In this document: positions 10,871-63,061 of the stretch, piece by piece
How positions within the stretch are numbered: position 1 is the first letter of the stretch
Layout of the letters: each line of letters starts with the position of its first letter
Source: an uncultured Bacteroides sp.
Lineage (GTDB): Bacteria > Bacteroidota > Bacteroidia > Bacteroidales > Bacteroidaceae
Assembly: GCF_963666545.1 (NCBI RefSeq)
Contig: NZ_OY762899.1
Span: forward strand, 744,001 to 808,000
DNA: 64,000 nt
Direction of reading: 5' to 3'
Translations under genes and position numbers: made by a program
The notes under the pieces: generated by a model
Databases searched by the model: none
Told to the model about the DNA's origin: nothing
What the model saw: the letters and a program-made list of their open reading frames with translations, nothing else

Positions 10871-10936
10871 TGTTGAACGTCCGCGATCAGCGTGTTGAAT
10901 GCACGCTTTCAACATACTGATCGCGGACGTTCAACA
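10871..10936. repeat. 66-nt palindromic element of three 22-nt modules
   Basis: Perfect 20-nt inverted arms (10871-10890 and 10917-10936) enclose a second inverted repeat, TGTTGAA/TTCAACA. The whole can fold into one long hairpin with an 8-nt loop. Read linearly it is three 22-nt modules: the third is the inverse complement of the first except at two bases, and the middle one has palindromic ends. It lies between convergent prmA and the GH25 gene, so it may end transcription from both sides, but the GC-rich stem has no clear T run. The remnant CGCTGAA follows the right arm. Confidence 0.85.
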
Positions 10937-10994
10937 CGCTGAAGTTATGACATCCACAGAGAGCAAGTAGTTTGTTAGAATTTAAGACTATTAT

Positions 10995-11858
10995 TTATTG
11001 GATAGCAAGCGCTCTAAGCTCATCTATCGAACCATTGAAGACATTTAAATCGACCTCCTCTTTTATTCCCTTTACAGTACCCACATCGGTATGTTGCCAA
11101 AAATCCCATTTACCTTTATAAGCAACGGAATCTACATAATAGTGTGCAATCCAATACGGGTAAGCATCAAATGAAGGGTCATCCAGATACTTTGTTTTAA
11201 ATTTATAAGAAGTATAAAGAATCGGTTTCACTCCGTAATGAGCTTCTATGCGGTTGAGCCAAATTTTGAGACTTTCTTGCAACTCTTTCTTGTTTTTTCG
11301 ACCGGTCAATTCCACATCAAGTACCGGAGGTAGATCTCCCGGTCTAAGTTTCACCGTTCGAATAAAGAAATTAGCTTGCTTCAGGGCGTCCGCTTTGGGA
11401 GAAAAGAAGTGATAAGCTCCACGAATAAAGCCGTACTTACGGGCAAGGGCGAAGTTTTGTTCAAAGGCATCGTCAGCCAACATTCTCCCTTCAGTGGCTT
11501 TCATGAAGATAAATTGTATCGGGTAATCAGTTTCATTGGTTAAGAGCAATTTCTCCCAATCAATTCTACCCTGATAATGCGACACATCAATGCCGTGCAC
11601 ATCGTAACAGCAAGGCATACATACTCCGTACTCTTTTTGAGTATGGCACGGCTTCCATCTATATGCATACGGACGAATAAAAAAGTAATAGAAACCGGCG
11701 GCAAAGGCAAACACAACCACAATAGCAAGCAAATTGCGAAACCACACCGGCATGGTGCGAACTGCCTTCTTCCGCTTACGTTTATTGGTAGAACGTGGCT
11801 TAGCAACCACTTTTTTCTTGGGTGCACGTCCGCGTGATGTCGTTGTTGGTCCGGTCAT
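10995..11858 (-). CDS. GH25 family lysozyme, membrane-anchored
   Basis: The 287-residue protein has a strongly basic N-terminus, one membrane segment (about 39-61, FRNLLAIVVVFAFAAGFYYF) and a glycoside hydrolase family 25 domain. The domain shows GIDVSHYQGRIDW (catalytic-type Asp91), FIFMKATEG (Glu123), GAYHFFSP and PPVLDVEL (Asp181, Glu183), the acidic residues expected for GH25. These enzymes cut the MurNAc-GlcNAc bond of peptidoglycan. With its N-terminus inside, the catalytic domain would face the periplasm, so wall remodelling is more likely than an attack role. It follows pfp by 80 nt with a hairpin between. Confidence 0.9.
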   Translation of the reverse strand: MTGPTTTSRGRAPKKKVVAKPRSTNKRKRKKAVRTMPVWFRNLLAIVVVFAFAAGFYYFFIRPYAYRWKPCHTQKEYGVCMPCCYDVHGIDVSHYQGRIDWEKLLLTNETDYPIQFIFMKATEGRMLADDAFEQNFALARKYGFIRGAYHFFSPKADALKQANFFIRTVKLRPGDLPPVLDVELTGRKNKKELQESLKIWLNRIEAHYGVKPILYTSYKFKTKYLDDPSFDAYPYWIAHYYVDSVAYKGKWDFWQHTDVGTVKGIKEEVDLNVFNGSIDELRALAIQ

Positions 11859-11881
11859 ATATAATAAGGTAGCAACATAAG

Positions 11882-11921
11882 AGCCGATAACAAGCTGAAT
11901 TATTTCTGCTCGTTATCGGCT
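11882..11921 (-). terminator. Hairpin after pfp
   Basis: AGCCGATAAC (11882-11891) and GTTATCGGCT (11912-11921) form a perfect 10-bp stem that can extend inward by AGC/GCT after one mismatch. It begins 18 nt after the pfp stop. No T run follows, so it may be a partial terminator or 3' stabiliser before the GH25 gene. Confidence 0.6.
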
Positions 11922-11938
11922 ACTTAGTATCAATAAAT

Positions 11939-13585
11939 TTATTTAGCTTGTTCTAATTGCAAAGTCTTGGTAGGCTGATCGCAAACTTCCGTCGGACCAA
12001 AATATTGTATCGGACCTGGATAAACATAAGCTGTTTCAATGGCCCAATTATCGCGTTTAGCAACAAATTCCTTGAATGGAGCACCATCAAGCTTCACCAA
12101 TGCTTTTTGTATCACTGATTTCATTTCGCCATGGCGACGTTCCATATTCATCATCATTGTGATGGGCACACCTCCTGCAATCCATTCAGCAGCAGGTGCT
12201 GTTGTATTACGCACTGAAGACATATAACCTGTTTTTCCGTTAGCTATCAACATGGAAGCAGTGTAACCTAATGAATAACAGTAGTCGGCATCATAGTTAG
12301 ACGGAGCTGCGCAACGTCCTTCGTAACCGAAGAAGTGATGTTGAGCTGCAAACTTTCCAACGAATTTACCTTCAGCTTTCCACTGTGTAAGTTTAGTTGC
12401 CACCATTTCAGACAATAACTTTTCTGTTTCGATCAATGAAACTTGCACGTTTCCATGAGGATCTCTATCCAATGTCAACTGACGGGCAACACCTTCGGGC
12501 AGACTAGCATAAATTTCTGCATTGGTTGCTGAAAGTTTAGAGATAATATAGTCGCGTTGATGAGATTTCTTAATATGAGAAAATTCTTCAGCATTGACGG
12601 CAAGAAAGTCATTCAGTTCCGAAATCAGTCTCTTCATGGCCGGAATAAACTCAATCAGACCTTCCGGAATCAGAACCGTACCGAAGTTATTGCCTTGAGC
12701 AGCTCTGTTGGCTACAATTTGAGCGATGTATGTAACAACATCATCCAAAGACATATCCTTTGCCTCTACCTCTTCAGAAACAATGCAAACATTGGGTTGT
12801 ACCTGCAGAGCACACTCCAAAGCGATATGAGAAGCCGAACGTCCCATCAACTTAATGAAGTGCCAGTATTTACGAGCCGAGTTACAGTCGCGTTGAATGT
12901 TTCCGATCACTTCAGAATAAACCTTGCAAGCAGTATCAAAACCAAAAGAAGCCTCGATCATTTCATTCTTCAAATCACCGTCAATGGTTTTGGGACAACC
13001 GATTACCTGTACGCCATACTTCTTGGCAGCATAATATTCGGCCAATACGCAAGCATTTGTATTCGAATCATCTCCACCGATAATCACAAGTGCTTTAATA
13101 CCTAATTCCTTTAATATCTCGTATCCTTTGTCAAACTGATCTTCAGCCTCCAGTTTGGTACGGCCTGAACCAATGATGTCAAAACCTCCCGTGTTACGAT
13201 ATTCATCAATGATGTCTCCAGTCAGTTCCATGTAGTTATGATCAACCAATCCGCCGGGACCAAGGATAAAACCATAAAGTTTGCTGTCGCCATTGAGTTT
13301 TTTAATGCCGTCAAACAGACCTGAAATAACATTATGTCCACCCGGTGCTTGTCCACCGGACAGAATTACACCGACATTCACTGCAGGGAAATTAATGGCT
13401 TCAGCTGATTCAACAAACTGAATCAATGGCATTCCGTATGTGTTGGGAAATAATTCTTTGATGGCCTCCTGATCGGCCACCGATTGAGTTGCAGCACCTT
13501 CGCTCACTTTGACAGTTCCTTTCAAAGCTTTTGGAAGCTTAGGCTGATACGCAGCCCTTGCAATTTGCAATGCACTTTTAGTCAT
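11939..13585 (-). CDS. pfp: Diphosphate-dependent 6-phosphofructokinase
   Basis: The 548-residue protein matches the long PPi-dependent phosphofructokinase type. It has [15 protein letters not shown] (about 75-89), [23 protein letters not shown] (168-178) and [11 protein letters not shown] (197-207). The Asp after GGD (GGDDSN in place of the ATP-enzyme GGDGS) and the Lys in PKTIDGD are the residues that specify pyrophosphate instead of ATP. It reversibly phosphorylates fructose-6-phosphate in glycolysis, sparing ATP in anaerobes. No clear TAnnTTTG box was found upstream, but the divergent intergenic region has AACAAC/GTTGTT palindromes. Confidence 0.93.
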
Positions 13586-13754
13586 CTTTTCTATTTTATT
13601 TAAAGGGGTTAGTAAGTTCTACCTAAATAACTCTGGCAAATTTCGCTTTTTTTTCTGGATTATAAAAGCATGAACGACTCAAAACAGAATATTTGCACAA
13701 GAAAAAGTATACAACACAACTAATTTGTAATACACAGATGGCATATCAGAACAA

Positions 13755-13777
13755 AACAACGTTGTTAAAAAAACAAC
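13755..13777. promoter_or_regulatory. AACAAC/GTTGTT alternating palindromes between pfp and a small gene
   Basis: AACAAC (13755-13760), GTTGTT (13761-13766) and AACAAC (13772-13777) form a perfect 12-bp palindrome plus a second inverted pair. They lie in the divergent region between pfp and the gene at 13856. It may be an operator, but the sequence is low in complexity. Confidence 0.35.
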
Positions 13778-13806
13778 AAACATTCGCCAAAACCAAAGAA
13801 AGTCTC

Positions 13807-13814
13807 TATCTTTG
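13807..13814 (+). promoter_or_regulatory. -7 box of the 13856-15519 gene group
   Basis: TATCTTTG, preceded 20 nt earlier by TTCG (13783-13786) as a weak -33 box, lies 41 nt before the ATG at 13856. Confidence 0.6.
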
Positions 13815-13855
13815 CCTAATTATATTTTTAATCAATCACATTAAACGTAAAGATT

Positions 13856-14125
13856 ATGGCAAGCAGAAGAGAACTTAAAAAGAATGTAAACTATATCATT
13901 GGTGAGCTATTCAGTGAATGCGTAGTAAGTGTCAACTGCATACCGGGCACTGACAAGACAAAAGCTGATGAACTAATGTTGAACATTCTAAAGGTTCAAG
14001 ATGATTTTATCAGTCGTATCAGCCACACCGAACCAGGAAACGTAAAAGGATTCTACAAGAAATTCCGCGAAGATTTCAATGCTAAAGTCAATGATATCAT
14101 TGAAGCAATAGGAAAACTTAACTGA
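13856..14125 (+). CDS. Conserved-looking small cytoplasmic protein, unknown function
   Basis: This 89-residue protein has no signal peptide or membrane segment and appears mostly helical: a basic N-terminus (MASRRELKKNVNYIIGEL), a short loop with Cys (SECVVSVNCIPGTDK), and an amphipathic C-terminal half ending IIEAIGKLN. I do not recognise a domain. A good -7 box stands upstream, and the acyltransferase gene begins 13 nt after its stop, so the two are probably co-transcribed. A 61-codon plus-strand frame at 13693-13878 overlaps its start and promoter and is not credible. Confidence 0.75.
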   Translation: MASRRELKKNVNYIIGELFSECVVSVNCIPGTDKTKADELMLNILKVQDDFISRISHTEPGNVKGFYKKFREDFNAKVNDIIEAIGKLN

Positions 14126-14138
14126 ACAAAAAGTTAGA

Positions 14139-14696
14139 ATGAGAAAGGCAATCTACGGTTTTATCTATCACCGCATATTGGGATGGAAAGAAAAAGCAAC
14201 CGCACTCGATTTTGATAAATGCATTGTTTGCGCCGCACCCCATACTACCAATTGGGACTTGTTTATTGGTAAGCTTTTTTATGGCACTATTGGCAAGAAA
14301 ACCAGCTTCATGATGAAAAAAGAATGGTTCTTCTTTCCTGTAGGCATTCTCTTTAGAGCTGTAGGAGGCATTCCGGTCAACAGAGGACGCAAATCATCAT
14401 TAGTAGATCAAATGGTGGCGCACTTTGCAAATAGCGAAAGATTTCACTTGGCCATCACTCCGGAAGGTACCCGCAAAGCCAACCCAAATTGGAAAAAAGG
14501 ATTTTATTATATCGCATTAAAGGCTCAGATTCCCATTGTTTTGGTAGCCATTGACTATCAAACGAAAACAATCACTGCCGAAAAATCCATCTTCCCGTCG
14601 GGTGATATAGAGAAAGATATGCGAGAAATTAAGTTGTACTACAAACAATTCAGAGGTAAACATCCTGAAAATTTCTCCATAGGAAATATAGAATAA
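14139..14696 (+). CDS. PlsC-like lysophospholipid acyltransferase family protein
   Basis: The 185-residue protein carries the acyltransferase motif HTTNWD (His35 to Asp40, the HX4D signature), GGIPVNRG (about 75-82) and TPEGTRK (106-112, the PEGTR motif). It is short for PlsC and lacks a long N-terminal membrane segment, as in the compact glycerol-acyltransferase group of Bacteroidota. The family moves a fatty acyl chain to a lysophospholipid or related hydroxyl at the inner membrane. It is flanked closely by the small unknown gene (13 nt) and the nitrilase-family gene (19 nt). The actual acceptor is not determined. Confidence 0.85.
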   Translation: MRKAIYGFIYHRILGWKEKATALDFDKCIVCAAPHTTNWDLFIGKLFYGTIGKKTSFMMKKEWFFFPVGILFRAVGGIPVNRGRKSSLVDQMVAHFANSERFHLAITPEGTRKANPNWKKGFYYIALKAQIPIVLVAIDYQTKTITAEKSIFPSGDIEKDMREIKLYYKQFRGKHPENFSIGNIE

Positions 14697-14715
14697 CGTT
14701 CAATATAACAGAACG

Positions 14716-15519
14716 ATGTCTTCCGATCAACTAAGAATATCAATGCTGCAAACAGATATTGTTTGGCAGGACAAAGAAGAAAATCTCCGTTTGCTCCGCG
14801 GCAAGTTGCAAAAACTCCGCGGAGAGACGGATCTTGTTATACTACCCGAAATGTTTTCTACCGGATTTAGCATGCAAAGTCATTCTTTGGGAGAGCCCGT
14901 TACCGGAAAAACAATCACGACTCTACAAGCTTGGGCCAACGAATATACTGTGGCCATCGCAGGCAGTTATATCGCATCCGATCATTCGACCTATTACAAT
15001 CGTGCCTTTTTTCTTACTCCCGAAGGAGATTCTTATTACTACGACAAACGACATCTTTTCCGAATGGGTGGCGAATATGATTCGTTCTCTTCCGGAAATA
15101 AAAGACTGATAGTGTCTTATCATGGATGGAACATCTGTCTGCTGGTCTGCTACGACCTTCGTTTCCCCGTATGGAGCAGAAATAGGAAGAACGAATACGA
15201 CCTACTTATTTATGTAGCCAATTGGCCCGCTTCTCGCCGCCACGTATGGGACGCATTACTAAAAGCAAGAGCACTTGAAAATATGAGCTACGTTTGTGGA
15301 GTCAATCGCATAGGTAGTGATGGAAACGGCTTAAGTCACGATGGAGGAAGCGTACTCTACTCGGCCAAAGGCGAAACACTTACAGTCATTCCCGATAATG
15401 AAGAGCATATCTCTACAACAAAAATTGACCTTCAGACCCTACACCAATTCCGAGAAAAATTCCCCGCATGGAGAGACGCCGATAGCTTCCGATTAGAGGA
15501 TTCTTCCGAAAGTCTTTAA
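14716..15519 (+). CDS. Nitrilase-superfamily amidohydrolase, omega-amidase (YafV)-like
   Basis: The 267-residue protein has the complete nitrilase catalytic triad: Glu45 in LPEMFSTGF, Lys111 in DKRHLFRMGGE and Cys145 in CYDLRFPVW. GVNRIGSDGNG and SHDGGS near the C-terminus are typical of the YafV/Nit2 omega-amidase branch, which hydrolyses alpha-ketoglutaramate or alpha-ketosuccinamate to the keto acid and ammonia. The length is normal. It ends the small operon beginning at 13856. It could instead be another deaminated-metabolite repair amidase. Confidence 0.86.
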   Translation: MSSDQLRISMLQTDIVWQDKEENLRLLRGKLQKLRGETDLVILPEMFSTGFSMQSHSLGEPVTGKTITTLQAWANEYTVAIAGSYIASDHSTYYNRAFFLTPEGDSYYYDKRHLFRMGGEYDSFSSGNKRLIVSYHGWNICLLVCYDLRFPVWSRNRKNEYDLLIYVANWPASRRHVWDALLKARALENMSYVCGVNRIGSDGNGLSHDGGSVLYSAKGETLTVIPDNEEHISTTKIDLQTLHQFREKFPAWRDADSFRLEDSSESL

Positions 15520-15564
15520 ATGTTAAAACCCTCTTCCTCCTACAACAATATGCTAAAAAAGACG

Positions 15565-15594
15565 TTTCCATAAAGAACATCTTTTGTATATTTG
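15565..15594 (+). promoter_or_regulatory. Promoter of the NagB-like/PIG-L gene
   Basis: TTTC (15565-15568), 18 nt, then TATATTTG (15587-15594), a good Bacteroides -7 box, 50 nt before the ATG at 15645. Confidence 0.6.
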
Positions 15595-15644
15595 TCGTTG
15601 AAAACAGTCACACGACTTTAATTTTAAATAACTTAAAGGAACTT

Positions 15645-17636
15645 ATGAAGACAAATCTTAGTTCTCAAATCACTCTCAACAGGGTCTCCCCCAGATACTA
15701 CAGACCCGAGAATGCATTTGAGAAATCGGTATTAACCCGATTTGAGAAAATTCCTACAGACATTTATGAATCTGTAGAAGAAGGTGCTAAACACGTTTCA
15801 AACGAAATAGCCCAAGTCATTCGCGAAAAACAAAAGGCAGGGCGCTTTTGCGTATTGGCACTCACCGGTGGAAGCTCTCCACGTAATGTCTACTCCGAAT
15901 TGATTCGCTTGCACAAAGAAGAAAACCTTAGTTTCCGCAACGTAATCGTATTCAATCTGTACGAATACTATCCACTTAGTCCGGATGCCATAAACAGCAA
16001 TTTCAATGCATTAAAAGAGATGTTTCTGGATCATGTCGACATTGACAAACAGAACATCTTTACTCCCGATGGTACTATTGCCAAAGATACCATTTTTGAA
16101 TATTGCCGCCTCTACGAACAACGCATCGAGAGCTTTGGAGGGATTGATATTGTACTGTTGGGCATCGGACGTGTAGGTAACATTGCGTTCAATGAACCGG
16201 GTTCGCGTCTAAACTCTGCTACCAGACTGATTTTGCTCGACAACGCCTCACGCGATGAAGCAGCAAAAACATTCGGCAGCATAGAAAGCACACCTATCAG
16301 CTCCATCACTATGGGAGTATCGACTATCCTTGCTGCAAAGAAAATCTTACTTATGGCATGGGGAGAAGATAAAGCCGGTATGATCAAAGAATGTGTGGAA
16401 GGAGCTGTGATAGATACCATACCGGCATCTTATCTGCAGACTCACAACAATGCACAAGTGGCGATAGACCTTTCTGCGGCAGCCAATCTGACTCGCATTC
16501 AGCGTCCATGGTTGGTTACCGCTTGCGAGTGGAACGATAAACTGATCCGTAGTGCCATTGCATGGCTTTGCTCGCTAACCGGAAAACCTATACTGAAATT
16601 AACCAATAAGGACTATAACGAAAACGGTCTGAGTGAATTATTAGCATTGTATGGTTCTGCCTACAACGTGAATATCAAGATATTCAATGATTTGCAGCAC
16701 ACTATTACCGGATGGCCCGGAGGTAAACCTAATGCAGACGATACGTATCGTCCTGAGCGTGCAAAACCTTACCCCAAACGTATCATTGTCTTTTCACCGC
16801 ATCCTGACGATGATGTGATTTCAATGGGTGGAACAATCAGACGCCTCGTAGAACAGAAGCATGAAGTACACGTGGCTTATCAAACTTCGGGAAACATTGC
16901 TGTAGGTGATGAAGAAGTAATACGCTTTCTTCATTTCATCAATGGTTTCAACCAGTTGTTCATGAACAGTGAAGATAAGGTTATCAGTGAGAAGTATGCC
17001 GAAATCCGTGATGTCTTGAAAGACAAAAAAGATGGAGATATCGACACGCGCGACATCTTAACTATCAAAGGATTGATTCGTCGGGGCGAAGCACGCACAG
17101 CTTGTACATACAATAATATCCCGCTGAATCGTTGCCACTTCCTCGATTTACCCTTCTACGAGACAGGTAAAATACAGAAAGATCCGATTAGCGAAGCCGA
17201 TGTGCTTATCGTTCAGAAACTACTTCAGGAAGTAAAACCTCATCAGATATTTGTAGCAGGAGACCTAGCCGACCCACACGGAACTCACCGTGTTTGCACC
17301 GACGCCGTATTTGCAGCCATTGATTTGGAAAAAGAAGCAGGAGCCAAATGGTTGAAAGAATGCCGCATCTGGATGTATCGAGGTGCATGGGCTGAATGGG
17401 AAATAGAAAATATAGAAATGGTCGTTCCTATTAGTCCGGAAGAGTTGCGCGCCAAACGAAATTCTATCCTGAAACATCAATCACAGATGGAGAGTGCACC
17501 GTTTATGGGTAATGACGAACGCTTGTTCTGGCAACGTAGTGAAGACCGTAACCACGGCACAGCCGCTTTGTATGATAGTTTGGGGCTGGCTTCTTACGAA
17601 GCAATGGAAGCTTTTGTAGAGTACATACCGTTATAA
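15645..17636 (+). CDS. NagB-like domain fused to PIG-L (LmbE) deacetylase domain
   Basis: The 663-residue protein has two domains. Residues about 50-290 resemble glucosamine-6-phosphate deaminase NagB (GGSSPRNVYSELI, IAFNEPGSRLNS, DTIPASYLQTH). About 378-660 is a PIG-L/LmbE deacetylase with the zinc motifs SPHPDDD (384-390) and DPHGTH. Aligned by eye with E. coli NagB, Asp72 is Tyr106, Asp141 is Val177 and His143 is Asn179; only the Glu of FNEPG (Glu184) is kept. The deaminase step is therefore probably lost and the domain may only bind an amino-sugar phosphate, while the deacetylase looks intact. It precedes the composite amidase-like gene, with a terminator and a new promoter between. Confidence 0.88.
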   Translation: MKTNLSSQITLNRVSPRYYRPENAFEKSVLTRFEKIPTDIYESVEEGAKHVSNEIAQVIREKQKAGRFCVLALTGGSSPRNVYSELIRLHKEENLSFRNVIVFNLYEYYPLSPDAINSNFNALKEMFLDHVDIDKQNIFTPDGTIAKDTIFEYCRLYEQRIESFGGIDIVLLGIGRVGNIAFNEPGSRLNSATRLILLDNASRDEAAKTFGSIESTPISSITMGVSTILAAKKILLMAWGEDKAGMIKECVEGAVIDTIPASYLQTHNNAQVAIDLSAAANLTRIQRPWLVTACEWNDKLIRSAIAWLCSLTGKPILKLTNKDYNENGLSELLALYGSAYNVNIKIFNDLQHTITGWPGGKPNADDTYRPERAKPYPKRIIVFSPHPDDDVISMGGTIRRLVEQKHEVHVAYQTSGNIAVGDEEVIRFLHFINGFNQLFMNSEDKVISEKYAEIRDVLKDKKDGDIDTRDILTIKGLIRRGEARTACTYNNIPLNRCHFLDLPFYETGKIQKDPISEADVLIVQKLLQEVKPHQIFVAGDLADPHGTHRVCTDAVFAAIDLEKEAGAKWLKECRIWMYRGAWAEWEIENIEMVVPISPEELRAKRNSILKHQSQMESAPFMGNDERLFWQRSEDRNHGTAALYDSLGLASYEAMEAFVEYIPL

Positions 17637-17669
17637 AGACAAAGGATAACTATCCTAAAAACAAGTATT

Positions 17670-17750
17670 AAACACAGATCACACCGGTAGTTCAGATTTC
17701 TTGTTAAAGAAGAAAATGATCTAAGCTATTTGTGTAATCTGTGTTTTTTT
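17670..17750 (+). terminator. Long-stem terminator after the NagB-like/PIG-L gene
   Basis: AAACACAGAT (17670-17679) pairs with ATCTGTGTTT (17737-17746), extended inward by ACAC/GTGT after one mismatch, and runs into a T tract. The loop is about 45 nt. Confidence 0.6.
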
Positions 17751-21431: not shown

Positions 21432-23282
21432 ATGAAAGAATACAGACTGACCGACTGGTTGCCTACAACCAAGAAAGAAGTGGAACTCCGAGGCTGGAGT
21501 GAACTGGACGTAATCATTTTCAGCGGCGACGCTTATGTAGATCATCCATCGTTTGGTGGAGCTGTGATCGGACGCATACTCGAAGCTGAAGGACTGCGTG
21601 TAGGCATTGTGCCACAACCAAATTGGCGGGACGATCTGCGTGATTTCAAAAAGCTGGGTCGTCCCCGTCTTTTCTTCGGCATTAGTGCCGGGTGCATGGA
21701 TTCGATGGTCAACAAATACACGGCCAACAAACGCCTGCGCAGTGAAGACGCTTATACTCCCGACGCACGTCCGGACATGCGTCCCGAATATCCAAGCATT
21801 GTTTATACACAGATACTCAAACAACTTTGGCCCGACGTACCCGTTGTTTTGGGAGGCATCGAAGCATCTATGCGCCGTCTTACGCATTATGACTATTGGC
21901 AAGATAGCGTACGAAAAAGCATATTGTGCGATAGCGGAGCCGATCTGCTCATCTACGGCATGGGCGAAAAACCCATCATAGAGATTACCCACCGCCTGAA
22001 TGAAACACTTGCCGGCCAGCCCGATATGCAGGCTACCAATACATTACTGCAAACCTTTACAGACATTCCGCAAACATCCTATATAGCGCCAAACTATAGT
22101 GCTGAAAAAGGAGATATCGCTCTTTACAGTCACGAGGAGTGTCTGCGCGACAAGAAAAAGCAAGCAGCCAACTTTCGCCACATAGAAGAAGAGAGCAATA
22201 AATATGCCGCAGCACGCATTACCCAACAAGTAGGCAGCGAAACGATTGTAGTCAACCCGCCTTATCCGCCCATGACGCAAACGGAACTCGATCATTCATT
22301 CGATCTGCCTTACACCCGTCTGCCCCACCCCAAATACAAAAATAAGCGCATTCCCGCTTATGATATGATTAAGTTCTCTGTCAACATTCACCGTGGATGT
22401 TTTGGCGGATGTGCCTTTTGCACCATCTCCGCCCACCAAGGCAAATTCATTGTAAGCCGCAGCAAGCAAAGCATCCTGAATGAAGTAAAAGAAGTCACCA
22501 ACCTACCCGACTTCAAAGGATACCTAAGCGACCTGGGAGGCCCGTCAGCCAACATGTATATGATGGGAGGACGAGACGAAGCCGTATGCCGCAAATGCAA
22601 ACGGCCATCGTGCATTCATCCCAAAATATGTCCCAATCTGAACACCGACCACCGTCCTTTGCTCGACATCTATCACACCGTAGATGCCATGCCCGGCATC
22701 AAGAAAAGCTTTATCGGCAGTGGCGTACGCTACGACTTATTGCTTCACCAAAGCAAAGATGCTGAGGTAAACCGCAGCACAGCGGAATACACACGCGAAC
22801 TAATCGCCAATCACGTTAGTGGACGGCTCAAAGTTGCCCCCGAACATACCAGCGATGCTGTACTCTACATCATGCGTAAACCCTCCTTTGAGCAATTCGG
22901 AGCTTTCAAGAAGATCTTTGATCGCATCAATAGCGAACAGAATCTGCGTCAGCAACTCATCCCCTATTTCATCAGCAGCCATCCCGGATGTAAAGAGGAA
23001 GACATGGCCGAACTCGCTATCGCTACCAAGCAATTGGATTTCCATCTGGAGCAGGTACAGGACTTTACTCCTACACCCATGACCGTAGCCACCGAGGCCT
23101 GGTATACAGGCTACCATCCCTATACACTAGAACCCGTTTTCAGTGCCAAAACGCCTCGTGAAAAGTTGGCCCAACGACAATTCTTCTTCTGGTACAAACC
23201 CGAAGAACGCCGGAACATTATCAATGAGCTAAAGAAGCTTTCACGCCAAGATTTGATTGACAAACTTTATGGAAAACGATAA
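21432..23282 (+). CDS. ygiQ: YgiQ family radical SAM protein
   Basis: From the ATG at 21432 (MKEYRLTDWLPTTKKEVELR) the protein has 616 residues, within the YgiQ range. The N-terminal half has the expected GWSELDVIIFSGDAYVDHPSFG and GGIEASMRRLTHYDYW. The radical SAM cluster motif is CFGGCAFC (CxxxCxxC) near residue 321. A second group of Cys (CRKCKRPSCIHPKICPN) follows, and SGRLKVAPEHTSD and FFWYKPEERRN lie near the end. The reaction of YgiQ is not established to my knowledge. The last 81 nt are duplicated at 26124-26204, behind an inserted gene cassette. Confidence 0.93.
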   Translation: MKEYRLTDWLPTTKKEVELRGWSELDVIIFSGDAYVDHPSFGGAVIGRILEAEGLRVGIVPQPNWRDDLRDFKKLGRPRLFFGISAGCMDSMVNKYTANKRLRSEDAYTPDARPDMRPEYPSIVYTQILKQLWPDVPVVLGGIEASMRRLTHYDYWQDSVRKSILCDSGADLLIYGMGEKPIIEITHRLNETLAGQPDMQATNTLLQTFTDIPQTSYIAPNYSAEKGDIALYSHEECLRDKKKQAANFRHIEEESNKYAAARITQQVGSETIVVNPPYPPMTQTELDHSFDLPYTRLPHPKYKNKRIPAYDMIKFSVNIHRGCFGGCAFCTISAHQGKFIVSRSKQSILNEVKEVTNLPDFKGYLSDLGGPSANMYMMGGRDEAVCRKCKRPSCIHPKICPNLNTDHRPLLDIYHTVDAMPGIKKSFIGSGVRYDLLLHQSKDAEVNRSTAEYTRELIANHVSGRLKVAPEHTSDAVLYIMRKPSFEQFGAFKKIFDRINSEQNLRQQLIPYFISSHPGCKEEDMAELAIATKQLDFHLEQVQDFTPTPMTVATEAWYTGYHPYTLEPVFSAKTPREKLAQRQFFFWYKPEERRNIINELKKLSRQDLIDKLYGKR

Positions 23283-23350: not shown

Positions 23351-23456
23351 GATTAGCTCACAGAATACTTTTATAGCTCAAAAGCAACGCAAAATGAGCT
23401 AAATTGAAATGTTATAAAAAGATAGACTGGAATAGCCAACTTTAGCTGGGTATTCC
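23351..23456. repeat. Palindromic AGCTCA array and hairpin downstream of ygiQ
   Basis: TAGCTCA occurs in direct orientation at about 23354 and 23374 and inverted as TGAGCTA at 23395-23401; the AGCT cores are 20 and 22 nt apart. The second and third copies form a 7-bp stem with a 14-nt loop. Further on, GGAATAGCCA (23429-23438) and TGGGTATTCC (23447-23456) make a 10-bp stem with one mismatch. It lies between convergent ygiQ and the AraC gene. Confidence 0.6.
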
Positions 23457-26114: not shown

Positions 26115-26204
26115 AGCCCCGAGGAAGAACGACGCAACATCATCAATGAGCTAAAGAAGCTCTCACGCCAAGATTTGATTGACAAACTTTACGGGAAACG
26201 ATAA
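26115..26204 (+). pseudogene. Orphan 3' end of a second ygiQ allele
   Basis: Codons from 26124 to 26204 encode the last 26 residues of YgiQ plus stop (EERRNIINELKK then LSRQDLIDKLYGKR). The 81 nt differ from the intact ygiQ end (23202-23282) at six positions, all third codon positions and all synonymous; the flanking codons also resemble it (SPEEE against KPEE). Similarity stops upstream at about 26118. The remnant therefore comes from a functional ygiQ of a related lineage, displaced when the 23283-26114 cassette arrived. No start or promoter is associated with it. Confidence 0.85.
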
Positions 26205-26292
26205 ATAGAGCAAGCAGAATCGTCTTTTCGCAGAGCTGCCTACACTCTGAAATTTTCAATTACCCGAAAAATCCGCACTATGCAATAGCGCC

Positions 26293-26421
26293 AAGAGAAC
26301 CGTTCTTTCTAAGCAACTGAACGGTTCTCTTTCACCAACTGAACGGTTCTCTTGAAATAACTACACGGCTATCTGTTTACCAACAACCACACCCTTTCGT
26401 TGAAGCAATTGCATGGCTCTG
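26293..26421. repeat. Degenerate 22-bp-period palindromic array
   Basis: GAGAACCGTTC (26295-26305) is followed by its inverse GAACGGTTCTC at 26319-26329 and 26341-26351, exactly 22 nt apart. Weaker copies follow at 26363-26373 (ACACGGCTATC) and 26411-26421 (GCATGGCTCTG). The first two copies form an 11-bp stem, extendable by two pairs. It sits 90 nt after the ygiQ remnant and before a convergent pseudogene. Confidence 0.7.
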
Positions 26422-26440
26422 TTTAGAGCTCCACAAATGC

Positions 26441-27485
26441 CTAAGCAAAGCCCCCACTAAAGTATAAAAACAGCTTTTTATGCCAGACATAAGGCGAAGG
26501 TGGTGGTCGTGGCGTTAAGCAAGAAATTGGGCTTGAGTGCAGCAAGTGAAATCGTTGGTCTTTGCAATCACCATCGAAGTAGTTCGAAACAAGAAGTGAG
26601 CTTATTGCAGGCTGGTTTGTCATCTCCCCAATATCGCCATCAAAGCAATTTGAAACGAGAAGCTTGGAAGTTGGCTTTCTGCTTCTTTCCTTTTTGCGGC
26701 AAACTAAAAATGGAAGAATAGAAACTTGGCAATTGTTTGTGGTTGTGGATGTGATTACGCGCGCAGTTGTTGTACCACAACAACCATACTCTCCTTTATC
26801 TTTTTCTACTTTACTTTCCTCTTCTAGAGAACACCTTGCAACTCCTTCATTATCAGCGTTTTGCAAACATGTATTTTTCGTTGTTTTTGCACTGTTTTGC
26901 ACATTGTTTTGCATGCTATTTTGCGCATTGTTTTGTGCACTTTGAAACAATTCGTTTGCACTCTTTTGCATTACTTCTGAACTAGTTATTTCAGATTCTT
27001 TTGCCGGAGAATCGACAATTATTGGAATGATAGTTCCAACAATTGATGTATTCACTTCCGGTGCATACTCCTGCTGCGAATCAACCATCGGAACCGTTTT
27101 TTTCGTCTCTGCATTCTTTTTGGCAATTTGTCTAAAGGTGTAAACTCGGATGCTTGATTCTTTTTCGCTGCCATTGTCTTACGCTTTTCGTCAAGCGGCT
27201 TCATTCGTTTGTTGAGTCCGGGGGACGAAAAGTACTGTTCATCATCCAGCACAAACAAGTAGTACTTCCGGATAATATCAGATAAATACTCCGTCGAAAG
27301 ACCAAACTCCCGAGCCAAGACAGGAGCAGAGAGAGTGGCATCGAATAATTTTTCTGCATGCGCAGATATTCCAATAAGCTCCAATAAACGCCGTATCCCT
27401 CAAGACCTTTATCGGCTTTGAGGCGTAACAGTTTAATGTTATTGTGCGCTGTTACATCGTGTGGAAAGTACTGATCATTCTTCAT
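26441..27485 (-). pseudogene. DUF4373-type (Lin1244/Lin1753-like) gene with two frameshifts
   Basis: Three minus-strand frames join into one product. The first (from 27485) gives MKNDQYFPHDVTAHNNIKLL and GLEGYGVYWSLLEYLRMQKNY, the opening of a replication-initiator-like domain common on Bacteroides mobile elements. The second continues TLSAPVLAREFGLSTEYLSDI and IRKYYLFVLDDEQYFSSPG. The third begins near 27117 with VDSQQEYAPEV and a Gln/Asn-rich segment. Adding one base near 27344 and one in the five-T run 27117-27121 would restore a single frame. The C-terminal third looks unrelated to the family and contains an imperfect internal repeat. Either decay or homopolymer sequencing errors would explain it. 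The start lies four nt after a CCTTTG box. Confidence 0.75.
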
Positions 27486-57836: not shown

Positions 57837-57856
57837 CTATTGAAAAGTTTCATTCG

Positions 57857-59101
57857 TTATTGATTGTCGCCTACAGACAATGCCTGATAAGCCTCTTGAA
57901 AAAGAGCAACCATATCATCGGGCATCTCAGCCTGATAAATTCTTTCGAAAGCAGATCGGGCTATTTGCAAAGGATCCATAGCCTCCAAGCCTTCCGTCAT
58001 CTGCTGTTCAGTTGAGTCAGAACCTTGCTCTTTGCGGTAAGCGGAAACAATACGGGCCAAGCGAACATGCTTGTCTTGCAGCACCTCCTCTACCTGATTG
58101 CGGAACATCGGTTCGGGTTCAGTAAGCAACACTTTTACTTCCAGATAAGGAGCAAGGTTCGAATCCGTTTTTGCAGGAAGATTCCTCAATAGTTCCAACA
58201 CTTCTTCCGGTGAAACAGCTTCACCCAAGGGCACGCTAAGCAAGGAAACAAGCGGAATATATTCCCTCCTCTCTATGGATTGAAGCTTTCCATCAGCCAA
58301 TGTTACCAACACCGCACCCTGTTTGTAGTTTCGCTCGGCAAACGACATAGGCAGCGGACTGCCGGCATAGCGTACATTCTCCCTACCGGACACACGTTGC
58401 GCTTTGTGTGTATGTCCCAGAGCCGTATAAGCAATCCGTTCATCGAACGTTTCGGGTGATACACATTCCAAGCCTCCAATAATGGTTCTCTCACTATAAT
58501 CTCGTTCGGCTATTTCAGAGCCTGTGGCTTGTAAATGTCCGATGGCCACCACGGCCTGCTTGTCACTCTTCCGCAACAAGGCATGTTCCAAGAGTTGTTT
58601 ATAAAACTCCTTCACGCCCGCAGCATACGGATTTCCTTCCGTCTCTACCGAAGGATAATCACCTTGGCGCAAAAAAGGCACAGCCATGCACAACGCTTCC
58701 ACTTCGCCGGCTGCATTCTTTAACTCCACAATGAGCTCATCATAGAGCAACACGCCTTCCTTTTTAGGTACAACACCCTTAATCTCCGTACGCATCTCCT
58801 GTAGCAACGGCAGGGGTGCTTCCAAACGTGCCGCCGAGTCATGATTGCCGGCAACAATCACTAATTGCAGTGAAGGGTTCTCGCTAGTAACGCGACTGAG
58901 AAAACGATAGAACATCCGTTGGGAAGCCGCAGAAGGGTTGGATACATCAAACACATCGCCCGCTATAATAAGCACATCAATGTTGTTCTGTTTCAGTTCA
59001 ACAGCGAGCCAATCGAGAAAGTGTTGATGTTCCTCCGCACGCTCAAAGCCAAAGAAACTTTGTCCCAAATGCCAGTCGGCAGTATGCAGTATACGTACCA
59101 T
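57857..59101 (-). CDS. sbcD: SbcD exonuclease subunit (Mre11-like)
   Basis: The 414-residue protein has the Mre11/SbcD metal-binding series: ILHTADWHLGQSFFG, DVLIIAGDVFDVSNP, VIVAGNHDSAARL, AIGHLQATGSE and TALGHTHKAQRV. It is the nuclease partner of SbcC, acting as manganese-dependent 3'-5' exonuclease and hairpin endonuclease. It is the first gene of the sbcDC pair. The PerR gene ends 17 nt upstream on the same strand, so the three may share a transcript, which would tie end repair to peroxide stress (inference). Confidence 0.95.
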   Translation of the reverse strand: MVRILHTADWHLGQSFFGFERAEEHQHFLDWLAVELKQNNIDVLIIAGDVFDVSNPSAASQRMFYRFLSRVTSENPSLQLVIVAGNHDSAARLEAPLPLLQEMRTEIKGVVPKKEGVLLYDELIVELKNAAGEVEALCMAVPFLRQGDYPSVETEGNPYAAGVKEFYKQLLEHALLRKSDKQAVVAIGHLQATGSEIAERDYSERTIIGGLECVSPETFDERIAYTALGHTHKAQRVSGRENVRYAGSPLPMSFAERNYKQGAVLVTLADGKLQSIERREYIPLVSLLSVPLGEAVSPEEVLELLRNLPAKTDSNLAPYLEVKVLLTEPEPMFRNQVEEVLQDKHVRLARIVSAYRKEQGSDSTEQQMTEGLEAMDPLQIARSAFERIYQAEMPDDMVALFQEAYQALSVGDNQ

Positions 59102-59118
59102 TACTTTCCATTAATTAG

Positions 59119-59547
59119 TCACTTATTATTTAAACAATTCTTACAGACCCCTTTATAGTAGTAATGAATTTCAGTCACCTGATGTCCCTCTATATCGTTT
59201 GCCACCACCTCTTTCATATCCACTTGAAGGAATAGATCATAAATCTTGCCACACTTCTTACATAAGAAATGTGAATGAGGAGTGATGTCGCCATCAAAAC
59301 AAACATTTCGCTCATCAATTGTGAGCATCTGTGCTGCCCCTTGATCAACCAATAGTCTTAATGTATTGTAAACCGTTGTTTTTGACAGCGTAGGTATTGC
59401 AGGAGAGAGTGCCGAATAGATTTCTTCAACAGAAGGGTGAGTTTTATGTTCCAACAAATACTCCATAATTGCCATGCGTTGCACAGATGGTTTTACCTGG
59501 TGGTTAAGTAGATATTCTACTGCGTTTGTCATATTATAAATTTTCAA
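59119..59547 (-). CDS. perR: PerR-type Fur family peroxide-sensing regulator
   Basis: The 142-residue Fur-fold protein has a winged-helix N-terminus (SVQRMAIMEYLLEHKTHPSV, TLSKTTVYNTLRLLVDQGAA). It has every regulatory ligand of Bacillus PerR at the same number: His37, Asp85, His91, His93 and Asp104, with structural-zinc pairs Cys96/Cys99 and Cys135/Cys138. Asp85 (FDG), where Fur has Glu, is the residue that marks PerR and peroxide sensing by metal-catalysed oxidation. An alternative start at 59532 would shorten it by five residues and shift these numbers. A near-ideal promoter lies upstream (59571-59601). Confidence 0.85.
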   Translation of the reverse strand: MKIYNMTNAVEYLLNHQVKPSVQRMAIMEYLLEHKTHPSVEEIYSALSPAIPTLSKTTVYNTLRLLVDQGAAQMLTIDERNVCFDGDITPHSHFLCKKCGKIYDLFLQVDMKEVVANDIEGHQVTEIHYYYKGVCKNCLNNK

Positions 59548-59570
59548 TCATTATATCTTGTTTCCGCAGG

Positions 59571-59601
59571 CAAAGGTAAAAAAACATTTTACCCGAACAA
59601 A
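59571..59601 (-). promoter_or_regulatory. Consensus promoter of perR
   Basis: On the minus strand TTTG (59601-59598), 19 nt, then TACCTTTG (59578-59571), an exact Bacteroides promoter, 24 nt before the ATG at 59547. Confidence 0.8.
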
Positions 59602-59604
59602 TGC

Positions 59605-59641
59605 TTTAAAGAACTTTTTCTTTAATGAAAAAAGCTTTAAA
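59605..59641. promoter_or_regulatory. Nested inverted repeat between perR and nadE promoters
   Basis: TTTAAAG-aac-TTTTTC and GAAAAA-ag-CTTTAAA are inverted around a six-nt centre: two nested perfect arms of 7 and 6 bp. The element starts four nt beyond the perR -33 box and about 46 nt before the nadE -7 box. It could be an autoregulatory operator; it does not match the Bacillus PerR box closely. Confidence 0.5.
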
Positions 59642-59686
59642 CACAGGTATTTCGGGGTTTTAGCAAACTTATTGAATAATATTTTC

Positions 59687-59694
59687 TATTTTTG
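59687..59694 (+). promoter_or_regulatory. -7 box of nadE
   Basis: TATTTTTG, 53 nt before the ATG at 59748. No well-placed TTTG. Confidence 0.6.
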
Positions 59695-59747
59695 CATGAA
59701 TAGATATTGCAACCGGAAACAGATTGCAGCAAATTGACTAAAGAATT

Positions 59748-61679
59748 ATGGTGAATCATGGATTTGTGAAAGTAGCAGCAGCAGTGCCTCACGTAAAGGT
59801 TGCCGACTGCAAAACGAACGCCCAACAAATAGAAAACATTATTGTTAATGCTGAAAAAGAAGGTGTACAACTCGTTGTATTTCCTGAACTGTGCATTAGT
59901 GGATATACGTGTGGGGATCTTTTCGCACAACAATTACTTATCGAAGAAGCCGAAATGGCTCTTGTACAGATACTGAACAACACCCGTCAACTTGGTATTA
60001 TCTCTGTCCTGGGTATGCCGCTAGGTGTCGATTCGATGCTATTAAATGCAGCAGTGGTCATTCAAAGAGGGAAAATATTAGGAATCGTTCCTAAAACTTA
60101 TCTACCTAATTATAAAGAATTCTACGAACAACGATGGTTCACCTCGGCTGCCGCCGCCGCAACGCTAACAAGCATGCGCCTTTGCGGAGAAAGAGTACCT
60201 CTTGGAGTCAACCTCGTATTTGACGCTTGCGGCACCACTTTTGGAATTGAGATTTGCGAAGATCTGTGGTCAGCTATTCCTCCAAGCTCAGCACTCGCTT
60301 TGCAAGGTGCCGAAATATTACTGAATCTTTCGGCCAGCAACGAAAGCATCGGCAAGCATACTTACCTGCGTTCACTTATCAGTCAGCAGTCTGCCCGATG
60401 CATAGCAGGTTATGTGTTTGCTTCATGCGGATTTGGTGAGTCTACCACCGATATCGTCTTTTCCGGTAACGGACTTATCTACGAAAACGGTACATTATTG
60501 GCAGGTAGCCAGCGATTCTCGCACGAAGAACAACTCATTATCAGTGAAATAGATGCAGAACGCCTGCGTTCAGAACGACGTACCAATACCACTTTTGCTA
60601 CCAACCGATCTTTGTTCGTCATTAAAGAGCCCATTCATGTTCAGGCAGAATTGGTAAATACCAAGGAATTGAACTTAACCCGTACGCTCGATGCACATCC
60701 GTTTGTGCCGCAAGGAGAAGCATTGAAAGAACGTTGCGAAGAAATCTTTTCCATTCAGGTGGGCGGATTGTCACAACGCATTGTGCATACCGCAGCAAAA
60801 ACAGCCGTCATAGGTATCTCCGGTGGATTGGATTCTACACTTGCCCTGCTCGTTTGCGTCAAAACATTCGATAAACTGGGGCTTTCTCGTGATGGCATTC
60901 TGGGAATTACCATGCCCGGCTTCGGCACAACCGATCGAACCTATAACAATGCTTTGGATTTGATGCGGTCACTCGGTGTCTCCATCCGTGAGATAGACAT
61001 CAAAGCGGCCTGCATCCAACACTTTGCGGACATAGGGCACGATATCAATGTGCACGATGTGACATACGAAAATTCTCAGGCTCGGGAACGCACGCAAATC
61101 TTGATGGACATAGCCAATCAAACCAATGGAATGGTGATCGGCACAGGAGATCTTTCGGAACTGGCACTGGGATGGGCTACGTACAACGGCGACCACATGT
61201 CGATGTATGGCGTTAACTCCAGCATCCCTAAAACATTAGTAAAATACTTGGTGCAATGGGTGGCAGAAAACGGAGTGGACGAAGCATCTCGCATCACCTT
61301 ATTAGATATAGTCGATACTCCTATCAGTCCCGAGTTGATTCCAGCCGATGAGAATGGCAATATCATACAAAAGACGGAAGATCTTGTCGGCCCTTACGAA
61401 TTGCACGACTTCTTTCTCTATCACTTTATGCGTTTCGGATTTCGCCCCGCCAAAATACTCTATCTGGCTTCCCTCGCTTTTAAAGAGGTGTACGACCGTG
61501 ATACGATAAAGAAATGGCTGCATACATTCTTCCGCCGTTTCTTCGCCCAACAGTTCAAGCGTTCTTGCTTGCCCGACGGTCCGAAAGTAGGAAGCATCTC
61601 CATCAGTCCCCGTGGCGACTGGCGTATGCCAAGTGACGCCTCATCGGCCGCCTGGTTACAGGAGATTGAAGAGCTATAA
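59748..61679 (+). CDS. nadE: Glutamine-dependent NAD(+) synthetase
   Basis: The 643-residue protein is the two-domain glutamine-dependent type. The N-terminal nitrilase-like glutaminase has VVFPELCISGYTCGDLF, PKTYLPNYKEFYE and GIEICEDLWS (Glu, Lys, Cys triad; Cys near 170). The C-terminal ATP-pyrophosphatase has VIGISGGLDSTLALLV (PP-loop, near 357) and GTGDLSELALGWATYNGDH. It amidates nicotinate adenine dinucleotide to NAD with ammonia from glutamine. It appears monocistronic, with its own -7 box and a hairpin after the stop. Confidence 0.95.
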   Translation: MVNHGFVKVAAAVPHVKVADCKTNAQQIENIIVNAEKEGVQLVVFPELCISGYTCGDLFAQQLLIEEAEMALVQILNNTRQLGIISVLGMPLGVDSMLLNAAVVIQRGKILGIVPKTYLPNYKEFYEQRWFTSAAAAATLTSMRLCGERVPLGVNLVFDACGTTFGIEICEDLWSAIPPSSALALQGAEILLNLSASNESIGKHTYLRSLISQQSARCIAGYVFASCGFGESTTDIVFSGNGLIYENGTLLAGSQRFSHEEQLIISEIDAERLRSERRTNTTFATNRSLFVIKEPIHVQAELVNTKELNLTRTLDAHPFVPQGEALKERCEEIFSIQVGGLSQRIVHTAAKTAVIGISGGLDSTLALLVCVKTFDKLGLSRDGILGITMPGFGTTDRTYNNALDLMRSLGVSIREIDIKAACIQHFADIGHDINVHDVTYENSQARERTQILMDIANQTNGMVIGTGDLSELALGWATYNGDHMSMYGVNSSIPKTLVKYLVQWVAENGVDEASRITLLDIVDTPISPELIPADENGNIIQKTEDLVGPYELHDFFLYHFMRFGFRPAKILYLASLAFKEVYDRDTIKKWLHTFFRRFFAQQFKRSCLPDGPKVGSISISPRGDWRMPSDASSAAWLQEIEEL

Positions 61680-61694
61680 CTTTCATAAATAGCA

Positions 61695-61729
61695 AAGAGG
61701 AGAGCATTCTTTAACGAAACTCTCCTCTT
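61695..61729. terminator. Bidirectional hairpin between convergent nadE and aldolase genes
   Basis: AAGAGGAGAG (61695-61704) and CTCTCCTCTT (61720-61729) form a perfect 10-bp stem with a 15-nt loop, 15 nt after the nadE stop and 33 nt after the aldolase stop. T residues follow on the plus strand. Confidence 0.75.
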
Positions 61730-61762
61730 ACTTTTATACTATAACAAATACGAACTTTTGCT

Positions 61763-62821
61763 TTAAGCAATCGTTACCGTAGAATCCAAATAAACATCCT
61801 GAATGGTATTCAGCAGTTCCACTCCATCTTTCATTGGTTTCTGGAATGCCTTTCGTCCGCTGATCAATCCCATGCCACCGGCTCTCTTGTTGACTACAGC
61901 CGTAATTACAGCGTCTTTCAAATCTGAAGCACCGTTTGATTCTCCACCGGAATTAATCAAACCAACTCTGCCCATATAGCCATTGGCTACCTGATAACGA
62001 CATAAATCAATAGGGTGTTCTGAACTCAGTTGCGTATAAACCCGTTTATCCGTCTTGGCAAAGTTAATAGCCGAGAATCCACCATTATTGGTAGGCAGTT
62101 TTTGTTTCACAATATCCGCCTGAATGGTCACTCCCAAATGATTAGCCTGCCCGGTGAGGTCGGCTGCTGAATGATAATCCACACCATCTTTCTTAAAACC
62201 GCTATTCCTCAGATAACACCACAAGATGGTTGCCATACCCAGTTCATGTGCATACTCAAAAGCTTCAGACACCTCGATCAATTGTCGCCTGCTTTCTTCA
62301 GAACCAAAATAAATGGTTGCACCAACAGCCACAGCTCCCATATTCCATGCCTCTTTTACCGTGCCAAACATAACCTGATCGTACGTGTTCGGATAAGTCA
62401 GCAACTCATTGTGATTCAACTTCACGATAAAAGGTATCTTGTGCGCATATTTACGTGCCACAGATCCCAAAACGCCATACGTTGAAGCAACTGCGTTACA
62501 TCCGCCTTCAATGGCTAATTTCACAATATTTTCCGGATCAAAGTAGAGCGGATTGGGTGCAAAAGAAGCACCTGCAGTATGCTCTATACCCTGATCAACA
62601 GGCAAAATAGACAAATAACCCGTATTGGCCAACCTACCGTGACCGAGCAATGCCTGCAAGCTATTCAATGTAGGAAGATTTCTATCCGAAGAGATCCAAA
62701 CATCATCTATAATAGTTGGAGAAGGAACATGAATAAGAGATTTCTCTATTGTTTTACTAACGTGACCAAGATAATATTCGGCTTGGTCGCCCAACAAATT
62801 ACTAATTTTAGTACTACTCAT
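61763..62821 (-). CDS. Class I (DhnA-type) fructose-bisphosphate aldolase
   Basis: The 352-residue protein matches the bacterial/archaeal DhnA-type class I aldolase: LPVDQGIEH (73-81), [15 protein letters not shown] (132-146), [19 protein letters not shown] and [20 protein letters not shown]. The catalytic Schiff-base Lys is expected in the C-terminal part of the barrel; GRKAFQKP marks the sugar-phosphate binding end. It cleaves fructose-1,6-bisphosphate and fits with pfp as part of glycolysis. It is convergent with nadE. A 7-bp inverted repeat lies 13 nt upstream of the ATG. Confidence 0.9.
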
Positions 62822-62834
62822 AATTTAAAGGTTT

Positions 62835-62855
62835 TAGTGTTCTACTATAACACTA
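62835..62855. promoter_or_regulatory. Inverted repeat in the aldolase leader
   Basis: TAGTGTT (62835-62841) and AACACTA (62849-62855) are perfectly inverted around seven nt, immediately upstream of the aldolase start. It could be an operator or an RNA hairpin near the ribosome binding region. No TAnnTTTG box for the aldolase was found. Confidence 0.4.
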
Positions 62856-62950
62856 CCGAAGCAAGATTAGTTTAGAATGATTCTATCTATTCAATGAATA
62901 AGCGAAGCTCTTTTGATAGGTAAAAGTCACAAAGAATAAGCCACTAATAT

Positions 62951-63061
62951 GTTTTCTAGTGATAAAACAAAAGGTTTCTCAGGTTGAAACAAAATGTTTA
63001 ACACGTTGAAACTAAATGTTTTCAAGTATGAAAACAAAAGTTTTATAGTATAGAAATCTGA
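62951..63061. repeat. Five-unit 22-bp palindromic tandem array
   Basis: Five units start GTTT at 62951, 62974, 62996, 63018 and 63040; the first is 23 nt and the rest 22 nt. Each of the first four can form a short stem with different but matched arms: GTTTT/AAAAC, GTTTC/GAAAC, GTTT/AAAC and GTTTTC/GAAAAC. The fifth is degenerate. It lies in the 412-nt gap between the divergent aldolase and GNAT-DinB genes; apart from it, the inverted repeat at 62835 and the -7 box at 63181, I see nothing in that gap. Confidence 0.75.

Follow-up and report, generated by a model that had tools for sequence, protein, structure and literature searches.

Intergenic arrays with a period near 22 bp in Bacteroides: array length and unit content at sites shared by related species

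REP, BIME and REPIN elements are intergenic palindromes that occur in tens of dispersed copies, often 3' of genes, with units that alternate in orientation and with RAYT transposases as partners. For another class, the tandem repeats of Subirana and Messeguer, a 2020 abstract in J. Bacteriol. is said to give lengths of 22/44 or 52 nt. The subject here is a set of intergenic arrays with a period of about 22 bp, found in a 64,000-bp stretch (positions 744001-808000, hereafter the window) of a 4,445,687-bp, one-contig Bacteroides genome, and in particular the array S1, which lies downstream of a prmA-like gene. The nearest named record found is Bacteroides ihuae; the prmA proteins of the two genomes share 88% identity. 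At S1 sites in three species the length of the array is nearly invariant, and the letters of its units are exchanged.

According to PMC8161180, bacterial genomes contain non-coding tandem repeats that keep one size but vary in sequence, with several families per genome; these measure 20-21 nt in Bacillus and 20-23 nt for individual species of many groups. The paper gives their function as unknown, proposes protein polymerisation or a small RNA, and sets a minimum of at least four repeats per array for the search. As far as this description goes, the present arrays are similar in being non-coding, in having units of about 20-23 nt and in forming several families of unrelated sequence per genome. 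They differ from it in that they consist mostly of 2-4 degenerate units, are partly dyad-symmetric and occur in Bacteroidales; S1 also has long single-copy borders, and comparison of its orthologs shows replacement of units in place. Set against the four-repeat minimum, S1 offers some three units, with further dyads in its borders. The word 'Bacteroid' is absent from the text available for PMC8161180 and PMC6749651, and no account of 22-bp arrays in Bacteroides was found in the literature searched, subscription papers lying outside its scope. An earlier note on this DNA, made from the sequence alone, knew of no named element of this kind; in view of what PMC8161180 describes, this was partly wrong. 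Tandem repeats of that kind were known before; what is new is the turnover of units in place in Bacteroidales.

Like REP and REPIN sequences, S1 is a short, dispersed extragenic palindrome with many copies; unlike them, the arrays have a fixed 22-bp phasing and a unit type that changes in place. A Y1 (IS200-type/RAYT) transposase (PF01797) exceeds the cut-off in 0/5 genomes, including those of the three species with S1, and the Escherichia coli control is positive; membership of the REPIN/RAYT system is rejected for this reason. Searches of plasmids, phages and viral contigs gave no match to the element. A third relative is the BrickBuilt miniature element (MITE) of Porphyromonas gingivalis. 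PMC4596501 describes it as intergenic: a leader and a tail flank a minisatellite of 23-nt units, its terminal inverted repeats are IS5-like, and its repeats form a single family. By that description both are intergenic elements of Bacteroidales that carry an array of about 22-bp units between outer parts; IS5-like ends were not recognised in S1, and one and the same S1 site can hold different units in different species.

Array period in the window and beyond

The gaps between open reading frames (ORFs) of the window were scanned with a listing threshold of 23/40 matches. Lag-22 arrays are listed at 10871 (S1), 26292 (S3), 62960 (S4) and 63081, together with three further weak matches at lags 18, 23 and 41, and Tandem Repeats Finder assigns 2.2-4.7 copies to the arrays of the window. 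For S1, S3 and S4 the strongest autocorrelation lies at lag 22 (0.58, 0.49 and 0.64, respectively). The earlier note had proposed a period of 22 bp, or close to it, at four intergenic sites; it is borne out for those at 10871, 26293 and 62951 and fails for the one at 23351 (S2).

The same preference extends beyond the window. The genome was sampled as 20 stretches of 20 kb at round coordinates, with 44.8 kb between ORFs, and an event was defined as a scanning window with at least 27/40 matches at some lag of 12-45. There are 17 intergenic events: 11 at lags 21-23, with 8 at lag 22 itself, 2 at lag 24, and one each at lags 15, 38, 44 and 45. Five dinucleotide shuffles of the sample gave no event, so the excess over shuffled sequence, whose absence the earlier note had named as a refutation, is present; the coding DNA of the sample contains 3 windows at threshold 28. 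Distinct array families of this genome have periods of 22, 23 and 24 bp.

Among 79 prmA loci of other Bacteroidaceae (80.7 kb), 27 events were found, 11 at lag 22, 8 at 23, 2 at 21, 4 at 42-44, one at 14 and one at 25, compared with 0.2 events per shuffled run. The units are unrelated in sequence between most of these species, and at least one such array (L084) is dispersed in its own genome, with 18 matches on both strands at about ten places. Ten genomes from other families of Bacteroidales, sampled as two stretches each (37.2 kb between ORFs; one genome yielded 2.4 kb of DNA), contributed 5 windows in 4/10 genomes, at lags 22, 23, 23, 23 and 39. Four 50-kb stretches of E. coli K-12 (28.2 kb between ORFs) gave none. 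Many unrelated intergenic arrays favour a period of 21-24 bp, and spacing shared without shared sequence, as the earlier note had suggested, is found at 21-23 bp with unrelated units both in this genome and in other Bacteroidaceae.

Length and unit content at S1 sites

The layout of S1 is a left border that is conserved, then roughly three units of 22 bp, then a right part. In the window copy, the left border (10851-10872, forward strand) follows the 22-letter pattern CARGCCTYSTGAGAGGGGTTTG with 3 mismatches. The interior (10871-10938, forward strand) comprises three 22-bp units of the GTCCG-like (GC) type, GTCCGCGATC / GATCGCGGAC, recognised by lag 22 (25/40 matches), inverted repeat and fold. 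It is a palindrome as a whole, with 32-nt arms at 10871-10902 and 10905-10936 that are 91% complementary; its RNA folds at -50.9 kcal/mol, compared with a shuffle mean of -21.4 (z -10.5; other strand, z -9.2). The right outer part (10939-10990, forward strand), drawn from the consensus over the copies in hand, reads CTGAAGTTAT... toward a TTTGTAAATA-like end; the right anchor itself was not recognised in the window copy.

With up to 3 mismatches, the border pattern matches 54 places in this genome; in B. ihuae it matches 56. The backwards pattern, used as a control, has 0 matches in either. Border and dyads are strong in the consensus of the copies in hand and the outer flanks weak. Dyad-to-dyad distances in the two species are 22 bp in 127/140 cases and 44 bp in 13/140, with no other value, in a count that leaves out copies whose dyads escaped the letter pattern. 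TGTAAA-like motifs lie on either side of the consensus in the same direction; no empty S1 site was found for comparison, and no search aimed at empty sites was made.

Comparison of 59 copies from this genome with 57 from B. ihuae reveals different inventories of units. Here, 28 copies are of the TTAACTA (TA) type, 27 of the GC type and 2 of the TTCACTA (TC) type, and 2 have none of these; in B. ihuae the corresponding numbers are 51, 3, 2 and 1. Both flanks could be matched for 29 pairs, of which 15 have TTAACTA in both species and 14 differ (12 GC/TA, 1 GC/TC and 1 TC/TA). A looser criterion (250 bp of flank) yields 35 pairs, 17 with differing type, at a mean flank identity of 89.4%. The prmA site itself is an example: its B. 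ihuae ortholog (L067) is equal in length to S1 but has units of the TTAACTA type.

Length is nearly invariant. The 100-bp core is gap-free in 24/29 pairs, compared with 12/29 and 10/29 for the two 100-bp flanks, which are partly coding (p 0.0025 and 0.0004). From left border to right anchor, the distance is 120 bp in both species in 13/15 pairs for which both anchors were found (in the other 14 of the 29 pairs an anchor was missed on one or both sides), and the remaining two pairs (L281/L289 and L029/L192) measure 120 vs 98 bp, which is one unit. Copies L325 and L300, which look orthologous by their flanks, are likewise one exact 22-bp unit apart, a difference that may reflect the recent gain or loss of a tandem unit. 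A letter pattern marked copies L191, L291 and L302 as mosaics of unit types, which was rejected; on reading, the three are ordinary TTAACTA copies whose dyads contain the letters of the pattern.

A third species adds to this comparison. When 158 genomes of the genus were searched for the border at up to 2 mismatches, three alone had more than 2 matches: this genome (42), B. ihuae (43) and G116 (32); for B. ihuae, the coordinates under G093 are those under G061. By mean flank identity, G116 is at 94.4% to this genome (18 pairs) and 88.2% to B. ihuae (16 pairs). Its 24 copies in hand include 21 of the GC type and 1 unclassified. In the 18 pairs with this genome, 8 are GC in both and 7 are TTAACTA here and GC there; the other three are TC here, unclassified here and masked in G116, one each. 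Flanks of the 7 TA-to-GC pairs are mostly 95-98% identical, with lower values for L207 (86 and 94%). A different interior between flanks of 95-98% identity is found, for example, in L326/L374, L321/L371, L323/L375 and, with a smaller number of units on the side of this genome, L049/L372. Even the GC/GC pairs have a species-specific subtype, GTCCGCGATC here (13, other arm 15) and GTCCGAGATC in G116 (6 and 6). In further genomes, L381 and L382 (G158) and L384 (G025) have a similar border with unrelated units and a lag-22 maximum; L383 (G162) has a similar border and no lag-22 maximum.

These comparisons show, for one family in three species, that site, borders and length of S1 are inherited along with the locus-specific flanks and that unit content is exchanged at single loci; a single type has also come to prevail over many loci of one genome, and unit replacement is almost all-or-none. 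Equal sites and equal length with swapped letters in close relatives suggest that length matters more than sequence.

Proposed phased binding and copying, and alternative explanations

A tentative explanation, held with somewhat less than even confidence, is that these are satellite-like intergenic arrays in which a unit length of about two helical turns, and in some of them dyad symmetry, is kept and the letters turn over; a phased protein and a copying process are what we infer behind this. A new type of unit would spread from locus to locus by copying of the gene-conversion kind, with the common borders and dyads as homology. The period would then correspond to a multimeric DNA-binding protein, or a family of such proteins, bound in helical phase where genes end, and the face of the helix would count for more than the exact letters. 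In favour of this reading are the preferred period, the rigid dyad spacing, the constant length of S1 with its swapped units, the prevalence of one unit type and the excess of S1 copies in convergent gaps (below). Both the route of exchange (conversion, template switching or an enzyme) and the cause of length keeping (protein, RNA or copying) are inferred. If copying is indeed at work, isolates are expected to be polymorphic for unit type at single loci. Constant size combined with variable sequence is on record in bacteria as unexplained; the three close species separate what is inherited (site, borders and length) from what is exchanged (the unit). They also call for caution, as sequence similarity is a poor gauge of conservation for such regions.

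Several points weigh against phased binding with copying. The binding protein is a postulate, and one that tolerates such different letters would be unusual; several paralogs or recognition of shape would be needed. Dyads occur in a minority of arrays, and a dimeric protein therefore misfits part of them. The lack of gaps could also arise without selection, if intact arrays were copied again and again, and copying would itself be deduced from its outcome alone. Unit types were called by short letter patterns of the analyst, and copies L038 and L042 look intermediate between types. The G116 assembly is a draft of about 180 contigs, 87% complete, in which 2/24 copies are masked by N.

Dyad symmetry was assessed in 35 arrays with a period of 21-24, 21 of them from loci and 14 from the genome sample including the window. 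The unit is more palindromic than 95% of shuffles (p <= 0.05) in 11/35 arrays (excess p 7e-7), and 6/35 pass a stricter test in which periodicity is kept (excess p 0.007). The earlier note had seen a shared dyad design at all its sites and had taken it to suggest selection on dyads. Dyads are present in S1 and several other arrays and are enriched overall, but most arrays fail both tests; since dyads are a minority feature, selection on them is not a general rule.

This matters for the idea that transcription, entering from one side or both, turns the arrays into hairpins at RNA 3' ends that are protective or linked to termination, with selection acting on pairing and not on sequence. The idea is unlikely. 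The S1 RNA is very stable on both strands, which fits, as does its position relative to genes (called by ORF length alone): 116 copies in two species comprise 40 in convergent, 59 in tandem and 15 in divergent contexts and 2 that overlap an ORF, compared with 17, 57 and 23 of 97 background gaps of at least 150 bp from the genome sample. Convergent contexts are thus enriched (p 0.008) and divergent ones depleted (p 0.049), with related copies left uncorrected. Orientation in tandem contexts is unbiased (32 vs 27, p 0.60), which discriminates little for a palindrome. In the 8 ortholog pairs of GC type in both this genome and G116, 11 paired positions have changed on both arms with pairing kept, compared with 0-2 double changes at slid axes; in the same pairs, 16 positions became mispaired through one-sided change and 8 gained pairing. 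TA/TA pairs lost 46 paired positions, gained 51 and compensated 11. Mixing left and right halves of different S1 copies costs little pairing (0.82, 0.79, 0.80 vs 0.72, 0.74, 0.78), and pairing in S1 is for that reason mostly a property of the shared consensus. S4 and S3 fold moderately (z -2.4 to -2.9), many arrays of equal period are without dyads, and exact 22-bp spacing is needless for hairpins. Curated Rfam models at gathering thresholds found 0 matches in the window and five loci. That the arrays have a central hairpin in common was likewise examined through the dyad tests, half-mixing and paired changes, and this proved weak.

Two further accounts, neither of them probable, dispense with a binding protein. 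It is doubtful that the arrays are traces of selfish or mobilised, REPIN-like palindromes, for which an unidentified enzyme would copy hairpin DNA into existing sites. Such an enzyme would explain why families are dispersed (54, 56 and 32 border matches in the three genomes), why a unit type sweeps through existing sites and why long perfect palindromes arise within S4 copies (e.g. L055 and L056); against it speak the five genomes searched, in none of which a Y1 transposase exceeded the cut-off, and the absence of any plasmid, phage or viral-contig match, as do the many sites common to the species and the failure to find an empty one, although none was directly searched for. Neutral satellites, made and homogenised by slippage and template switching, with the period as a functionless by-product, are also improbable. 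Exact gain or loss of 22-bp units between orthologs (120 vs 98 bp), units in either orientation and a location mostly away from promoters, as if the arrays were merely tolerated, would all be expected of them; a preference for 21-24 bp across unrelated sequences and families would need another cause, gaps occur less often within the arrays than in their flanks, and slippage does not produce wholesale swaps between distant loci.

A bolder version of copying with length keeping is rather a long shot: a dedicated system would overwrite palindromic arrays in place and genome-wide, with the exact length kept. This genome would then be caught in mid-sweep, with GTCCG replacing the older TTAACTA that is near-universal in B. 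ihuae, and G116 would have completed the sweep. If so, position and length of an array would be the heritable trait, and its letters exchangeable content.

Gene context and the other arrays of the window

The prmA-like gene upstream of S1 (ribosomal protein L11 methyltransferase; 9971-10840, forward strand; PF06325, E 2.4e-46) is convergent with a glycosyl hydrolase family 25 gene (10995-11858, reverse strand; PF01183, E 3.4e-51). The ORF list agrees with the earlier note in placing three of its four sites between convergent genes and one between divergent genes. In the 79 loci, arrays occupy 6/34 convergent, 7/85 tandem and 2/84 divergent gaps, with gaps downstream of prmA counted separately. 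The 3' end of prmA was considered for a special role because unrelated arrays recur there, in 9/36 gaps compared with 15/203 other gaps (p 0.004); this role was rejected, as prmA gaps are no different from other convergent gaps (6/34, p 0.56).

S1, S3 and S4 do not stand alone: all three prove to be copies of dispersed families, which the earlier note had missed. S4 (62949-63056, forward strand) consists of units of the form GTTT...AAAC with short spacers; it has 32/40 matches at lag 22, is reported by Tandem Repeats Finder at 62951-63056 with period 22, and belongs to a family that a genome search finds at 15 places with E <= 1.1e-11, S4 being one of them. A second, unrelated lag-22 array beside it (63081-63142, forward strand; 24/40; Tandem Repeats Finder 63086-63136, period 22) was overlooked in the earlier note; no further copy of it was seen at the loci in hand. 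Seven S4 ortholog pairs of this genome and B. ihuae with both flanks matched were compared by eye, the ortholog statistics covering S1 alone. In some pairs the two copies are near-identical; in L003/L336 another palindrome stands in place of half the array, and in L057/L339 the two arms of the inner palindrome differ in step. Copies L055, L056 and L057 contain, in part, a long near-perfect palindrome with outer units unchanged, as though copying from one arm had overwritten the other.

S3 (26292-26353, forward strand) has 22-bp units around GAACGGTTC, with 33/40 matches at lag 22 and a Tandem Repeats Finder period of 22; 11 genome places match at E < 1e-4, itself included. A decayed continuation (26354-26424, forward strand; repeat family D1) consists of 68-77% copies. 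At seven places, S3-like matches, some of them weak, are no more than about 600 bp away from S1 copies (genome positions 3858291/3858641, 1888188/1887938 and 3749094/3748735, for example), so that the S1 and S3 families may share neighbourhoods. By eye, loci L013, L032, L041 and L046 carry a multi-copy cassette with the look of a small-RNA gene, in which a promoter-like start is followed by ...CGGGGGAAGTTGTTGCTTCCCCCGTTTTTT, then an S3-like array and then the conserved tail ATGCTTATTTGTTATCGGAATAACTCC; the L013 and L032 cassettes have no match in Rfam. The ORF at 26441-27088 beyond S3 has no Pfam match, and its end recurs, by eye, beside S3 copies L018, L021 and L060; it is possibly a multi-copy gene.

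The site rejected as an array, S2, had been described at 23351-23416 with periods of 20 and 22 bp. Its best lags are 34, 33 and 5 (0.38), with lag 20 at 0.36 and no signal at lag 22; it falls below the 23/40 listing, and its RNA fold has a z of -0.12. No second copy was present among the loci in hand at that stage, in a search that was not genome-wide. Autocorrelation, inverted-repeat search and fold leave as a remnant an 8-nt inverted repeat, TTAGCTCA / TGAGCTAA (23353-23402, no strand assigned). An 80-bp near-identical direct repeat (23203-23282 and 26125-26204) ends at the stop codon of a radical-SAM gene (PF08497) and encloses an AraC-type regulator, a CMD-family gene and an alcohol dehydrogenase-like gene. 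This segment looks as if it was inserted at the 3' end of the radical-SAM gene, duplicating that end; S2 lies inside it and S3 past it.

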